Assembly: GCA_902609915.1 (NCBI GenBank)
Contig: CACLTO010000007.1
Coordinates: forward strand, 1-39,297
Source of the DNA: an uncultured Pelagibacteraceae bacterium
Lineage (GTDB): Bacteria > Pseudomonadota > Alphaproteobacteria > Pelagibacterales > Pelagibacteraceae
Reading direction: 5' to 3'
DNA: 39,297 nt
The position numbers and the translations under genes are program-made. Each line of letters starts with the position of its first letter. The stretch's first letter is position 1. Positions 24,033-27,842 of the stretch are shown one piece after another. The notes beneath the pieces are model-generated. The model worked only from the letters and a program-made list of their open reading frames with translations, searched no databases and was not told the origin of the DNA.

Positions 24033-24109
24033 GTTGAATTAAATAATTATAATTATAAAACCTTGCTCAAGGAGAGATGGTTGAGCGGTTGAAAGCACCG
24101 GTCTTGAAA
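24033..24109 (+). repeat. Left att-like copy: tRNA-Ser promoter plus 5' half, stopping after the anticodon loop
   Basis: This segment repeats 27715-27791. The tRNA part (24071-24109) matches the intact tRNA-Ser at 38 of 39 bases (ggTtgag here, ggCtgag there) and ends precisely after the anticodon loop (CTTGAAA); the next bases differ. The 38 bp before it, from GTTGAA through TATAAAACCTTGCT, also match closely with the same spacing, so the promoter is duplicated too. Without its 3' half it cannot make a tRNA. Read as the original chromosomal 5' half left behind by integration. Confidence 0.88.
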
Positions 24110-24225
24110 TTCCAAGTAACCCCTTCCCGCTTTAAGACGATTCGCGTACTTATCAAGTCATTGCTTACTTTTTGAAATTTAGTTTTCACGAAAAATTTAT
24201 CATTCTTAACTTGCCTAATCTTAAA

Positions 24226-24247
24226 ACTAGAACGAGACTAGAACGAG
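24226..24247 (+). repeat. Left tandem 11-bp repeats of island S
   Basis: Two exact copies of ACTAGAACGAG in tandem, 3 bp beyond the stop codon of the secreted-protein gene and about 115 bp inside the left att copy. The counterpart ACTAGAACTAG pair is inside the right end. One-turn periodicity and position suit recombinase arm sites. Confidence 0.7.
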
Positions 24248-24250
24248 AAA

Positions 24251-24808
24251 TTATATATTTTTATCCTTAATACTTTTGCAAATTTCATAAGCCTCATATA
24301 CAGATGAAATAAGTTTATTTAATTTCCAATTGTTTTCAGTTATATCAAAATACTTATTTGCATTAAAATTCAAACCATCAACAATTTGAATTTGGTATAT
24401 CCCCTCAGACTCATAATATTTGTACATAGTATAAATATATTCTTTAAGTGGAAATGTTCCCAAATAGAAAACAACTTTTAACCCTTCTTTATAAGGGAAC
24501 GTAGATAGTACCTCAGCAGTTGTTTCTATGTCATTTAACTTTATCGGAACTCTTCTACCAATCAATTGATCAAAATCTCCTGGATTGTTCCAAGTAAAAA
24601 AAGAAAACATTGAACTAACTTCTTCGCATTGTTCATCGGGAGATAAAACAAATGAAAACTTATCTGAATACTGGATTTCACCAGATACTATGGCATAGCT
24701 TTGATCCTCATATCTGGCTACTTCCCAGTCCTCATGAGCATGTGCGTTTGGATGGATAAACGTTAACAAAATTAACAAAAGAAAGGAGCTTTTGAAGATC
24801 CAACGCAT
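24251..24808 (-). CDS. Secreted protein of unknown function, island S cargo
   Basis: A 185-residue protein that I do not recognise. Residues 1-24 are a clear signal peptide (a hydrophobic core LLLILLTFI, cleavage after NAHA), leaving a mature start HEDWEVARYED. The mature part has a mixed beta-like pattern (YAIVSGEIQYSDKFSFVLS; GLKVVFYLGTFPLKEYIYTMY in parts) and two cysteines (in DEQCEEV and YEICKS) that could form a disulfide in the periplasm. No lipobox or C-terminal anchor. It lies 62 bp downstream of the HEPN-STAND gene on the same strand and may be co-transcribed with it. Whether it works with that system or is separate cargo cannot be told. Confidence 0.75.
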   Translation of the reverse strand: MRWIFKSSFLLLILLTFIHPNAHAHEDWEVARYEDQSYAIVSGEIQYSDKFSFVLSPDEQCEEVSSMFSFFTWNNPGDFDQLIGRRVPIKLNDIETTAEVLSTFPYKEGLKVVFYLGTFPLKEYIYTMYKYYESEGIYQIQIVDGLNFNANKYFDITENNWKLNKLISSVYEAYEICKSIKDKNI

Positions 24809-24870
24809 TATAATCTATAAATCATATTATATTGGTTTTATTAGGACTGAATTTTGTTTAAAAAAAGATT

Positions 24871-27615
24871 TTAATTTTTTATAATTGAAGGATTAACTGC
24901 AACTAAACTTTTTCTCGTTAAGCCCTCATGATCATCAAATATGAAAGATATTTTTGATCCATATGGGATAGTTCCTATTCCTTGAGAAATATGAATAAAA
25001 ATTTCCTCCCTAAGACTATTATCATAATCTCTATAATAACCATCTATTATTTCAATAAATCCACCTGCCTTAAGATTTGGTCTACCTTTATTTCCTAAAA
25101 AAATTCCATTAGCTTTGTCACCTTTTTTAAAAACTTTTTTATTTAATGTATTTTCTTGTTTTAAAAATTTATTTATGAATTTTTTTTGAGAGTCAGATCT
25201 AGTGTATGAAGTATATTCTTTAACTTTTTCATTAAAAACTGTAAATAAACTATTAATAAATTTATGCCTTTCATCTTGACTGAAATAACTTCTTAAGCTT
25301 GTTAATTCACCATAAGCTTTTGAGATAGTTGATTTAGTTGTTTTGTAGTCAATTAAGCTTAAATCTTCAAATTCTTTAAATAACTCAGCAAGATGAACTA
25401 TATTATTATATGCTTCAATAAAATCTTCATGAGAACCTTTTTCTATTAAATATTCACTAAAACGTCTGTGATATTCTAAAGAATTTTTAGCAAGTTTTCT
25501 TGCAAATCTTAGATCAATATCCTTAAATTTTATTGCTGCAATTTTATTTTTTTCAGCCATCTCTTTTGTTAATTGATCAAATTGACGTAAATAATATAAA
25601 GATTGTAATAATTGATAATGAATTTCGACAAACTCAGGGAAAATTTTTAACGATTCTAATCCAACATTAATTGAGTCTTGGTAAAGTGAAGCAAATCTAT
25701 ATGTTTGTATTTGATAAGCTCTTAAATTTGGATAATCTGGTTGTAATCTAATTGATATTTCGAAAGAATTTTTCATATCAAGTAGTGAACCTAGGTGACT
25801 GTAAAAAATACCCTCAACTCTATAAACTTCACAATATTTTGGGTGTTTTTTTTTTAAAAATGAAAAGGATTTTATTACTTGTTGGTCTTTATGATTTAAT
25901 TCGCTCAAAATTTTATCCTTATCTAAGGTTGCGCTATATTTCAAAGATAAGGAAGTCATTTTATTTCTATGTATAAGATACTTATTGATTTGCAAAAGTT
26001 CGTTTATTGCTTCATCGTCTGAGTCTTTTCTTTTTAAAAAGCTGTCATAATCATAACGAATGTTATTTAAATTATCTTTATTAATTTTTCTTGTTGACTT
26101 AATTGTTTTTAAACGAGCGTCTATGCTCATTATTTTCTTTTTACTATCTAAATCCTTAAAAAGATTATTTTTTTGTATAAATGATTTTATTATTGGTCTT
26201 AAACTAAAGTACTCAGTTTCACTTTCTTTTAGATCTCTAATAAGAAATCTTTTTCTATCTAAATTTGACAAGTTCAATTCTACTTCCTCTGGTTCTATGC
26301 CTGTATAAGTGCATATGGTTGTATTGGTAAATTCTTGTTCTAAATAGTAAAGCATCTCTAATATTTTTTTTGAATTTAAATCAAGTTTCTTGAATAAATT
26401 ACTATATGAATAATTTAGAAAATCTTTACTTGGTTCAAATGCTTTTTCAATTGAAGTGCCATTAAAAACATCATCTAAAGATAGCTTGATACCTAGTGGA
26501 TTGTTTTCTCTACGATTTGTCAAAGAAACTATCTCACTTTTAGTTTTTTTTCTTAAAAAATCTAGTTCAAGATATTGAGCATATTTTCTAAATAAATGTT
26601 CAGATGCTGAGTCATCAAAAGATGGTATTTTAATAGTTACACCAGAATCTATTGGCTCCCTAGATGTAATTATAATTTTCGACTCATGATCTATTTCATG
26701 AGAATTTTCAATAAAGTTCATAATTTTTTGATCTAATACAGTTTCTAAATTATCTAAAACTAATAAACATTTTTTTTTTGTTAGGTAATTTAATAAAAAT
26801 TCAATCTGATTATTTTCATCATTATCTTTTGAAAAATTTTCTAAAAATTCTTTATAAGATTTTAAAGATTGATTAAGACTTTTAATCTCATTATTCGAAA
26901 AGGTTTGTGTTTTAAAAGTAAACCATTTTATCTCATCATATTCACCAATTTTTGTTTTTATTTCATTACATTTATGTAATAAAAGAGACGTTTTTCCTAC
27001 ACCCGCATCCCCAGTAAGAACTATTACTGAATTTTTTTTCATTGTTTGATCTAACTTTTTGATAATCTTATCTCTTCTAATAAAACCAGTTTCTTGATGT
27101 TCTGTTGGAGGTAAATTATTCTCAATTTCATTGTCAGTTTCAAGCTCTTCTTCTAAAAAAAAATCTTCATTATATTTTTTTTCAGAAAAATTTTTTAATT
27201 CTGAAAATAATACTAAAAAAATATTTTCATAAATTGAAGTTTTATTTATAAAATTTTCCATTTCATCGATATCAGAAGCTAAAAGATTTTTATGAGCACT
27301 TCTATTTCTAACATGTTTTATTGAAAGAAGAGATTTACTTAAGTCTTCAAAAATTAGTTTTGACTCTTTTGTTAATAAATTTTTATGCTGGTTAAGTATA
27401 TCGTAACATTCAGAAAAATCTGCACCATTAATCAGTTCATCATCATTATCGTCTGAATTATTTTCAGTTTTAATCTTTAATCTTTCTATAATTTTAATAT
27501 CAACTAAATTTTTTAATCTATTTGTATTCAGCAATTCATCTTTTATCCAATTCCTTAAATCTTTTTCTATTGAAATAGCTAAAATTGTGCATTTAGTTTC
27601 AGCAGTAATTTTCAT
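24871..27615 (-). CDS. HEPN - STAND NTPase - TPR - cold-shock-domain protein, NLR-like conflict/defence candidate
   Basis: A 914-residue protein. Residues ~1-140 are helical and contain HVRNRSAHKN (101-110), an R-x4-H motif (Arg103, His108) as in HEPN ribonucleases. A short acidic linker leads to a STAND NTPase: Walker A GDAGVGKTS (202-210), Walker B CLLVLDNLE (283-291), IIITSRE (314-320) and NNPLGIKL (371-378), the NB-ARC-like GLPL counterpart. A winged-helix-like region is at about 400-480, and TPR-like helices run from about 530 to 800, clearest at 580-680. Residues ~831-907 resemble a cold-shock OB fold (GGFIE, EIFIHIS, YGSKISF, ending AVNP). The architecture suggests a sensor that oligomerises on ATP and cuts RNA, as in bacterial NLR-type anti-phage proteins. 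The domain calls are by eye; the function is inferred. Confidence 0.8.
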   Translation of the reverse strand: MKITAETKCTILAISIEKDLRNWIKDELLNTNRLKNLVDIKIIERLKIKTENNSDDNDDELINGADFSECYDILNQHKNLLTKESKLIFEDLSKSLLSIKHVRNRSAHKNLLASDIDEMENFINKTSIYENIFLVLFSELKNFSEKKYNEDFFLEEELETDNEIENNLPPTEHQETGFIRRDKIIKKLDQTMKKNSVIVLTGDAGVGKTSLLLHKCNEIKTKIGEYDEIKWFTFKTQTFSNNEIKSLNQSLKSYKEFLENFSKDNDENNQIEFLLNYLTKKKCLLVLDNLETVLDQKIMNFIENSHEIDHESKIIITSREPIDSGVTIKIPSFDDSASEHLFRKYAQYLELDFLRKKTKSEIVSLTNRRENNPLGIKLSLDDVFNGTSIEKAFEPSKDFLNYSYSNLFKKLDLNSKKILEMLYYLEQEFTNTTICTYTGIEPEEVELNLSNLDRKRFLIRDLKESETEYFSLRPIIKSFIQKNNLFKDLDSKKKIMSIDARLKTIKSTRKINKDNLNNIRYDYDSFLKRKDSDDEAINELLQINKYLIHRNKMTSLSLKYSATLDKDKILSELNHKDQQVIKSFSFLKKKHPKYCEVYRVEGIFYSHLGSLLDMKNSFEISIRLQPDYPNLRAYQIQTYRFASLYQDSINVGLESLKIFPEFVEIHYQLLQSLYYLRQFDQLTKEMAEKNKIAAIKFKDIDLRFARKLAKNSLEYHRRFSEYLIEKGSHEDFIEAYNNIVHLAELFKEFEDLSLIDYKTTKSTISKAYGELTSLRSYFSQDERHKFINSLFTVFNEKVKEYTSYTRSDSQKKFINKFLKQENTLNKKVFKKGDKANGIFLGNKGRPNLKAGGFIEIIDGYYRDYDNSLREEIFIHISQGIGTIPYGSKISFIFDDHEGLTRKSLVAVNPSIIKN

Positions 27616-27657
27616 ATCAACTTGTTTGTCTTAATAAAAAATTAATAGAATAAAATA

Positions 27658-27679
27658 ACTAGAACTAGACTAGAACTAA
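27658..27679 (+). repeat. Right tandem 11-bp repeats of island S
   Basis: ACTAGAACTAG followed directly by ACTAGAACTAA. It has the same ACTAGAAC core, orientation and 11-bp spacing as the left pair at 24226-24247. It lies 43 bp upstream of the HEPN-STAND start codon, so it may overlap that gene's promoter, and 36 bp before the duplicated tRNA promoter. Confidence 0.7.
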
Positions 27680-27712
27680 AGAGTTAATTTCATAAATCAC
27701 ATGTTCTCTTTT

Positions 27713-27741
27713 TTGTTGAAATTTAAAATTATACTTATAAA
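27713..27741 (+). promoter_or_regulatory. Promoter of tRNA-Ser, duplicated at 24031-24059
   Basis: TTGTTG (27713-27718) and TATAAA (27736-27741) are spaced 17 bp and lie 11 bp before the tRNA. The left half-copy has the equivalent TATAAA at 24054-24059 with matching spacing to its tRNA fragment. If the island reading is right, this functional copy was delivered by the element. Confidence 0.5.
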
Positions 27742-27752
27742 ACCTTGCTTAC

Positions 27753-27842
27753 GGAGAGATGGCTGAGCGGTTGAAAGCACCGGTCTTGAAAACCGGCAAA
27801 GGGGCAACTCTTTCCTGGGTTCGAATCCCAGTCTCTCCGCCA
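27753..27842 (+). tRNA. tRNA-Ser(TGA)
   Basis: A complete type II tRNA: acceptor GGAGAGA paired with TCTCTCC, anticodon loop CTTGAAA (TGA), long variable arm, T-arm GGGTTCGAATCCC, discriminator G and encoded CCA. Its 5' half and promoter are duplicated at 24033-24109. It ends 9 bp before the convergent sdhE stop. Confidence 0.96.

Follow-up and report, generated by a model that had tools for sequence, protein, structure and literature searches.

A predicted HEPN-STAND-TPR-cold-shock receptor on a recently transferred tRNA-Ser cassette of SAR11 bacteria

The stretch of DNA analysed here, called the window, comprises 39,297 nucleotides of contig CACLTO010000007.1 from an uncultured Pelagibacteraceae bacterium (GCA_902609915.1), a draft genome of 829 kb in 37 contigs that is 69.75% complete. 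One gene in the window encodes a 914-residue protein with a four-part design, HEPN, NB-ARC/STAND, TPR and a cold-shock-like OB fold, and the presence of this design in a SAR11 genome was confirmed. We consider it probable, though well short of assured, that the protein works as a bacterial immune receptor of the NLR type, with abortive infection as its outcome. Its gene is carried on an integrase-less cassette at a tRNA-Ser site. The gene and its domains are:

24871..27615 (-), HEPN-STAND-TPR-cold-shock domain (CSD) receptor gene, 914 amino acids (aa), from the open reading frame (ORF) list and the sequence; purifying selection
27166..27615 (-), HEPN domain, Swt1-like, residues 1-150, from HEPN_Swt1 matches within the family and the helices of the structure model
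27292..27309 (-), R-x4-H motif RNRSAH, residues 103-108, predicted RNase catalytic pair; R and H invariant
26116..27138 (-), NB-ARC/STAND NTPase, residues 160-500, with Walker A (202-209), Walker B (284-289) and TSR (317-319), from PF00931, structural matches and invariant residues
25207..26028 (-), TPR superhelix, residues 530-803, probable sensor, from a model match to the Ski3 TPR and the family profile against the PDB
24874..25143 (-), C-terminal cold-shock-like OB fold, residues 825-914, from the fold of the model; PF00313 matches in the family, without one in the window protein

An earlier note, made from the DNA alone, had proposed this four-domain layout, and the ORF, the motif positions, the profiles and the models bore out its coordinates. 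The motifs begin at residues 103 (RNRSAH), 202 (GDAGVGKT), 284 (LLVLDN), 317 (TSR), 372 (NPLGIK), 851 (GGFIE), 872 (IFIHIS) and 886 (GSKISF). The structure model of the whole protein had a mean pLDDT of 87.3 and a pTM of 0.72. The ratio of non-synonymous to synonymous substitution (dN/dS) was 0.17 against the relative L011 and 0.13-0.21 across the whole gene in three SAR11 pairs. The streamlined marine host that the note had supposed is SAR11 by kinship: genome G021 shares a genus with the window genome, and its contig L212 is identical to L014, a record of Pelagibacteraceae AG-896-K17.

The assignment of the NB-ARC core is certain. PF00931 matched residues 182-320 of the window protein with an E value of 1.4e-13, and G205, G207, K208, D288, T317 and R319 were present in all 64 aligned proteins. 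The model of the STAND module matched CED-4, Apaf-1 and the plant resistosomes with Z scores of ~20-22 over ~310 residues, in agreement with the NLR-type core claimed at the outset. These receptors, which mediate cell death in animals and plants and bear CARD, CC or TIR ends, share the core fold but differ in being without a HEPN domain or CSD. The TPR superhelix, also anticipated, is clear in the structure model, in which residues 532-803 matched the Ski3 TPR with a Z of 16.1, and the family profile of this region matched TPR proteins in the PDB, although a Pfam scan of the window protein gave no TPR match. The STAND-TPR protein 6mfv was matched with a Z of 14.7 over 466 residues, but with a root-mean-square deviation (rmsd) of 26.6.

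We infer that the N-terminal domain is a Swt1-like HEPN RNase, which would cleave RNA independently of metal as a dimer. Arg103 and His108, the pair singled out by the earlier note, were invariant in 64/64 aligned proteins (alignment A2, in which three rows, L013, L019 and L056, reach past a contig end) and in 70/70 N-domains. These counts are not circular, because the family was found with a Walker B pattern and the N-domain hidden Markov model (HMM) was seeded with four proteins picked regardless of the R/H motif. In the structure model, the helix formed by residues 83-107 terminates at the motif. The top Pfam family for the N-domains was HEPN_Swt1 (42 of 70 members at E ≤1, best 5.4e-6), and the next five, Abi_2, RiboL-PSP, DUF4145, Cthe_2314 and MAE_28990, with 12 to 2 members each, are all HEPN; Abi_2 and DUF4145 are counted as such in the accessible text of PMC3710099. 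A structure search with the whole model listed no HEPN chain; it covered mainly residues 160-587, and the absence excludes nothing.

The C-terminus of the window protein is, judged by its modelled fold, probably a cold-shock-like OB fold, with binding of single-stranded nucleic acid as its predicted function. Residues 800-914 modelled separately gave a pLDDT of 82.6, and in Foldseek CspA, UNR and other Csp proteins ranked first (CspA: E 6.3e-4, target TM 0.64, the single match below E 0.001). The same model matched the YBX1 CSD with RNA (Z 8.6, rmsd 2.6, 68 residues), and S1-type OB folds of exosome and RNase proteins ranked after the CSDs with Z ~7. The alignment given to the predictor held CSD relatives, and the fold match is thus not fully independent. 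The cold-shock features that had been read by eye stand on the model, though sequence profiles are blind to them: of 66 family C-termini, 39 gave a PF00313 match (best 1.6e-26) and that of the window protein gave none, and an HMM of the family C-termini missed the window and other SAR11 C-termini, with L011 (E 1.9) and L014 (E 4.5) both among the shuffled controls. An HMM found the domain in 57 of 63 full-length members, a count that is circular in that this HMM was built from members; the six without a match were L010, L011, L012, L015 and L016, all SAR11, and L031. When SAR11 C-termini and family members were compared profile to profile, the match was no more than suggestive (local score 26.2 with probability 41, where the best of 60 column shuffles scored 13.75; with the -glob switch, 19.5 and 8.7, respectively).

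The binding-surface residues F853, F873 and H875 are retained in the window CSD, and across the family residue 853 was aromatic in 56/56 sequences and residue 873 in 55/56. The SAR11 CSD carries an insert between the strands that bear RNP1 and RNP2 and is more divergent than the proteins in the accessible text of PMC3710099. In the relative L044 the C-terminus (residues 787-919) has two cold-shock domains, for which the top NCBIfam match was the Retron Se72 effector family NF038236 (1.4e-12, ahead of CspE at 9e-10); that family is no NLR, its model spanning 62 positions and describing a small effector that takes its name from a retron.

The gene lies on a cassette with the following features:

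24110..27842 (.), whole mobile cassette, 3733 bp, two genes and the intact tRNA-Ser, from near-identity to L010
24251..24808 (-), second cassette gene, 185-aa protein with a signal-peptide-like start (by eye); in L010 and L011, too, it adjoins the receptor gene
24071..24109 (+), truncated tRNA-Ser copy (tRNA nucleotides 1-39), left cassette boundary, from repeat comparison
27753..27842 (+), intact tRNA-Ser (TGA), right cassette boundary, from the 39-bp repeat at 27753-27791 and the end of the near-identity to L010 at its 3' end

The tRNA-associated island suspected earlier was thus confirmed and delimited by the intact tRNA-Ser and its truncated copy. The order recG - tRNA-Ser(TGA) - rarD - mltB - SPOR protein - dacA - tmk - holB - metG - tatD (gene labels are ours) is conserved in relatives, and the site was empty, with 69-99 bp between the tRNA and rarD, in 16 of the 17 in which both recG and rarD were visible, the remaining one, L160, having sugar-nucleotide-like genes there. 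The 17 come from 20 regions chosen, mostly as best matches, among the 56 genomes that gave a recG match. The window has 3.7 kb in this interval. The truncated copy (38/39 identical to the intact tRNA) sits in a 65-bp repeat at 24045-24109 (61/65 identical) and retains the native upstream sequence of the empty sites, as would fit an element that inserted close to the anticodon, inside the tRNA gene, and supplied a new 5' half. Among cassette ORFs of at least 35 aa there was none of integrase size beyond the two genes, and the 185-aa protein had no Pfam match.

The cassette is nearly identical, without gaps, to L010:8774-12506 from AG-422-J03 (3703 of 3733 bases, 99.2%, over window positions 24110-27842), while the flanking genes are far more different (recG, 1747/2046 identical, 85%; rarD, 604/772, 78%), and the near-identity extends no further than the truncated copy at one end and the 3' end of the tRNA at the other. 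Consequently, the cassette moved recently, as a unit, between two SAR11 genomes. That AG-422-J03 might be the window's own genome was rejected, as the flanks differ by 10-25%. The two receptor genes have 19 base differences and only three residue differences, and the 185-aa proteins have none in 185 residues; since silent changes exceed residue changes, both proteins seem to have been kept functional under selection. The same gene pair occupies the same place in L011 (72% protein identity), where its divergence from the window (mostly 0.20-0.34) is about that of recG (0.17-0.28), and older vertical retention therefore fits this locus.

Other cassettes were found at the same site. In L016:6453-19093, an intact tRNA-Ser and three 39-bp truncated copies bound three stacked cassettes without an evident integrase, which contain, in turn, a 167-aa protein; a nuclease, the receptor and a 129-aa protein; and an HKD-SNF2 helicase with a Type IIG restriction-modification (RM) system. 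The cassette of G080 (L207) carries a Type IIG RM system, and that of G089 (L208) an HKD-SNF2 helicase, a Type IIG RM system and a relative of the 129-aa protein. G318 (L209) has small ORFs including another relative of this protein, and G491 is nearly empty. Of 151 genomes searched for the 39-bp tRNA-Ser sequence, 98 gave at least one match, and 7 of these gave two. The stacked arrangement is reminiscent of the tycheposons of Prochlorococcus. Small secreted-looking proteins of 124-132 aa lie at cassette ends (L014:2313-2696, L016:11746-12135, L208:1445-1819 and L209:1885-2283), with 72-87% identity among the four; as it turns up alongside different cargo, this protein is probably a component of the cassette rather than a partner of the receptor.

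A NOV_C-type nuclease gene encoding 380-394 aa is directly upstream of the receptor gene, overlapping it or at most 3 nt away, at four loci (L012:7846-8988, L013:1051-2235, L015:7838-8989 and L016:7805-8989). In the three proteins tested, from L012, L015 and L016, NOV_C forms the C-terminal domain (PF13020, E 1.5e-10 to 1.5e-11), and one nuclease had a weak EVE-like match (E 0.024). The homologue in G021, 92-93% identical to those of L016 and L013, stands beside tRNA-Ser near a contig end (L151), and the G021 receptor begins another contig (L004). L012 and L015 are at a different genomic site, with no tRNA within the 20 kb fetched, and the window, L010 and L011 are without the nuclease gene. 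Across the 397 genomes of the order, the nuclease gave partial matches only, in six.

The receptor alleles of this group differ unevenly along their length. Between L016 and L013 the per-base difference was 0.025-0.09 in windows covering the nuclease, HEPN and STAND regions and 0.105-0.19 in those covering the TPR and CSD regions, and L016 was nearer to L014 (0.07-0.105) than to L013 in three of four TPR windows, with the reverse in STAND. Because the nearest relative switches there, recombination near the STAND-TPR border is suggested (mosaic region L016:10577-11685, compared with L013 and L014). The TPR-CSD half was apparently exchanged relative to the HEPN-STAND half, on the thin basis of one set of three sequences.

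Low-scoring similarities had given the impression that 396 of 397 SAR11-order genomes have a relative of the receptor. This was rejected: the matches listed besides that of the window's own genome reached at most 64.5 bits, mostly in the TPR part and a few in the CSD, and are interpreted as cross-hits to TPR and Csp proteins of other kinds.

Beyond SAR11 the family is broad, so that neither "uncommon" nor "undescribed", the words of the earlier note, can be kept. A tblastn search gave 134 relatives; among 83 ORFs, from the best 80 of these and three plasmid proteins, 71 carry the N-domain, one of them (L014) a fragment, and the idea of a rare architecture was rejected. By record title, the 71 come from Pseudomonadota, Actinomycetota, Chloroflexota, Planctomycetota, Cyanobacteriota, Spirochaetota, Bacillota, Acidobacteriota, Myxococcota, Bacteroidota, a Mycoplasmatota genome and an archaeal metagenome-assembled genome (MAG). 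Plasmids of Acinetobacter, Planococcus and Rhizobium carry relatives of the same layout. From A2, A3 and A4, the rows L010 (three residues from the window receptor) and L014 (fragment) were excluded; the truncated L034, L038, L070 and L075 were excluded from A2, A3, A5 and A6; L062 and L064 (close to L061) from A2, A5 and A6; L005-L007 from A5 and A6; and L010, L013, L031, L045, L056, L057 and L076 from A6.

Nor is the architecture new in print, and it could not be retained as undescribed. The accessible text of Anantharaman et al. 2013 (PMC3710099) lists HEPN(Swt1-like)-STAND-TPR-S1 and HEPN-STAND-cold-shock proteins, with Npun_F6454, MED222_16016, Desac_1927 and one protein from B. cereus as examples, and gives their architecture with no test of function. 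The literature search, for which supplements and most subscription papers were outside the scope, found no experimental test of the architecture, including in the accessible parts of PMC7159879, PMC11090510, PMC13092281 and PMC9122126. According to what is accessible of PMC13092281, DefensePredictor yielded four validated HEPN-domain systems among 31, plus a CBS-HEPN system; a tested relative could be among these four. No paper on this gene or on the tRNA-Ser site was recognised in the search on SAR11. The design is thus known and widespread, and the cassette setting, the recent transfer, the nuclease partner and the mosaic allele set are new here.

The predicted mode of action comprises RNA cleavage, ATP-driven oligomerisation, a phage trigger and an abortive outcome. 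In the resting cell, the TPR superhelix would hold the NB-ARC/STAND module closed, until the TPRs, possibly together with the CSD, perceived some component or activity of a phage and the receptor opened. ATP would then drive oligomerisation, which would bring the N-terminal HEPN domains together as dimers able to cut RNA, metal-free, via Arg103 and His108. The cold-shock OB fold may bind single-stranded nucleic acid and either present RNA to the HEPN site or report on RNA. Damage to host and phage RNA would halt phage production. The defence reading is supported by the restriction genes in other cassettes at the tRNA-Ser site (L016, L207 and L208).

Several observations weigh against defence by RNA cleavage, 1) the HEPN domain named by the earlier note is the leading family across the N-domains, but HEPN_Swt1 matched the window protein itself weakly, below its cut-off (E 0.0095; 16.7 bits against 27.5), 2) the family N-domain profile found no HEPN structure in the PDB, just unrelated chains at E ≥0.6, 3) RNP1 in the window CSD is degenerate, with G851 where 49 of 54 sequences show F or Y, 4) the receptor gene is rare in SAR11, being present in 2 of 150 genomes, and across the 397 genomes of the order a near whole-length match occurred, among the matches listed, only in the window's own genome (G000), 5) no relative was found in the phage records or viral contigs searched, 6) the neighbours outside SAR11 are diverse and few recur, the largest cluster being Nudix-like (by eye) at six loci, and 7) the tRNA-Ser site also holds, by eye, sarcosine-oxidase-like genes (L166:1-7023) and sugar-nucleotide-like genes (L160:2882-4629), and is therefore not solely a defence site. 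Enrichment for defence models near the gene outside SAR11 was also weak, with 87 PADLOC models for 106 near genes and 58 for 110 distant genes (E 1e-15), a tally that counts models rather than genes, may include spurious gene calls and rests on a random draw, under length limits, of 106 of 209 near and 110 of 124 far genes. As few neighbours recur there, the receptor looks mostly like a single-gene system.

NLR sensors are usually at the C-terminal end, which is where the CSD stands in the model, and the CSD was less conserved than STAND in all three SAR11 pairs. Both points would suit a receptor triggered by the CSD itself, through recognition of infection-specific RNA or single-stranded DNA, with TPRs that only transmit. 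We think this unlikely, since the aromatic positions 853 and 873 are kept across the family as for general rather than pathogen-specific binding, and the mosaic break falls at the STAND-TPR border, so that the TPRs were exchanged too. Because the TPR-CSD half looks exchanged and the CSD keeps its generic binding positions family-wide, sensing is more likely to fall to the TPRs, and the holding of nucleic acid to the CSD.

The carriage of the gene by small plasmids and by a mobile integrase-less cassette also invites the view that it is an addiction or stabilisation module, whose RNase is released on loss of the element or by a rival element and not by phage, and a RelE/ParE-family toxin gene is indeed nearby on pABLAC1 and on the Planococcus plasmid. 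However, no antitoxin-like partner recurs in the neighbour clusters, and the restriction genes in other cassettes at the tRNA-Ser site are defence cargo, which makes this account improbable. STAND proteins include regulators such as MalT, and the SAR11 CSD is without part of RNP1, as might be expected of a MalT/AfsR-like stress-response protein whose OB and HEPN folds bind RNA without cutting it and tune translation. Such a role seems very improbable for a protein with a strictly invariant R and H, expected of catalysis and not of binding alone, a patchy distribution, a mobile cassette and the company of restriction genes.

We thus favour the NLR-type abortive-infection receptor. A fuller form of that proposal is possible but rather doubtful: a SAR11 RNA-cleaving abortive-infection system of NLR type that travels between species on integrase-less cassettes, stacked with restriction systems at one tRNA-Ser gene, has its sensor half swapped onto a fixed effector half and is in some lineages operon-coupled to a NOV_C nuclease, as a two-nuclease system that may act on DNA and RNA.

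The bacterial NLRs Avs/AVAST and bNACHT have a STAND NTPase with an N-terminal effector and a C-terminal sensor. The window receptor shares this plan but differs in its NB-ARC core and HEPN effector, and NCBIfam Avs4 was absent from its matches (a relative, L060, gave a trivial 10.4 bits). PADLOC-DB 2.0.0 gave no confident system match for the window protein (best E 0.11). The proteins listed by Anantharaman et al. (PMC3710099), likened here by their description in the accessible text, share the order Swt1-like HEPN with R-x4-6H, STAND, TPR and C-terminal OB fold. TIR-NLR (TIR-STAND-TPR) of P4-like satellites shares the effector-STAND-TPR layout and its place as mobile-element cargo, and works against phage, but its effector is TIR, not HEPN, and the accessible text mentions no cold-shock domain (PMC9122126).

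SAR11 is a very abundant group of ocean bacteria, and the receptor resembles animal and plant immune receptors in build. The accessible text of PMC11066056 reports phage-infected SAR11 cells without detectable 16S rRNA; DefenseFinder detected systems, all of them restriction-modification, in 19 of 172 public SAR11 genomes and none in 14 MAGs. Its authors favour phage-driven recycling of rRNA, and their HTCC1062 time-course data speak against a defence system there (PMC11066056, same text). A link between the receptor and these ribosome-deprived cells is put forward as a hypothesis. As a predicted RNA-cutting receptor missed by the PADLOC models, the protein is a named candidate for some SAR11 lineages, not a general explanation; if the fuller proposal above is true, the system would be a first candidate encoded by the host for the destruction of RNA in SAR11 cells infected by phage. 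The wider family, with its conserved motif and its spread over many phyla and plasmids, is ripe for its function to be tested for the first time, and the tRNA-Ser cassettes show one site at which defence genes are kept and traded in SAR11.

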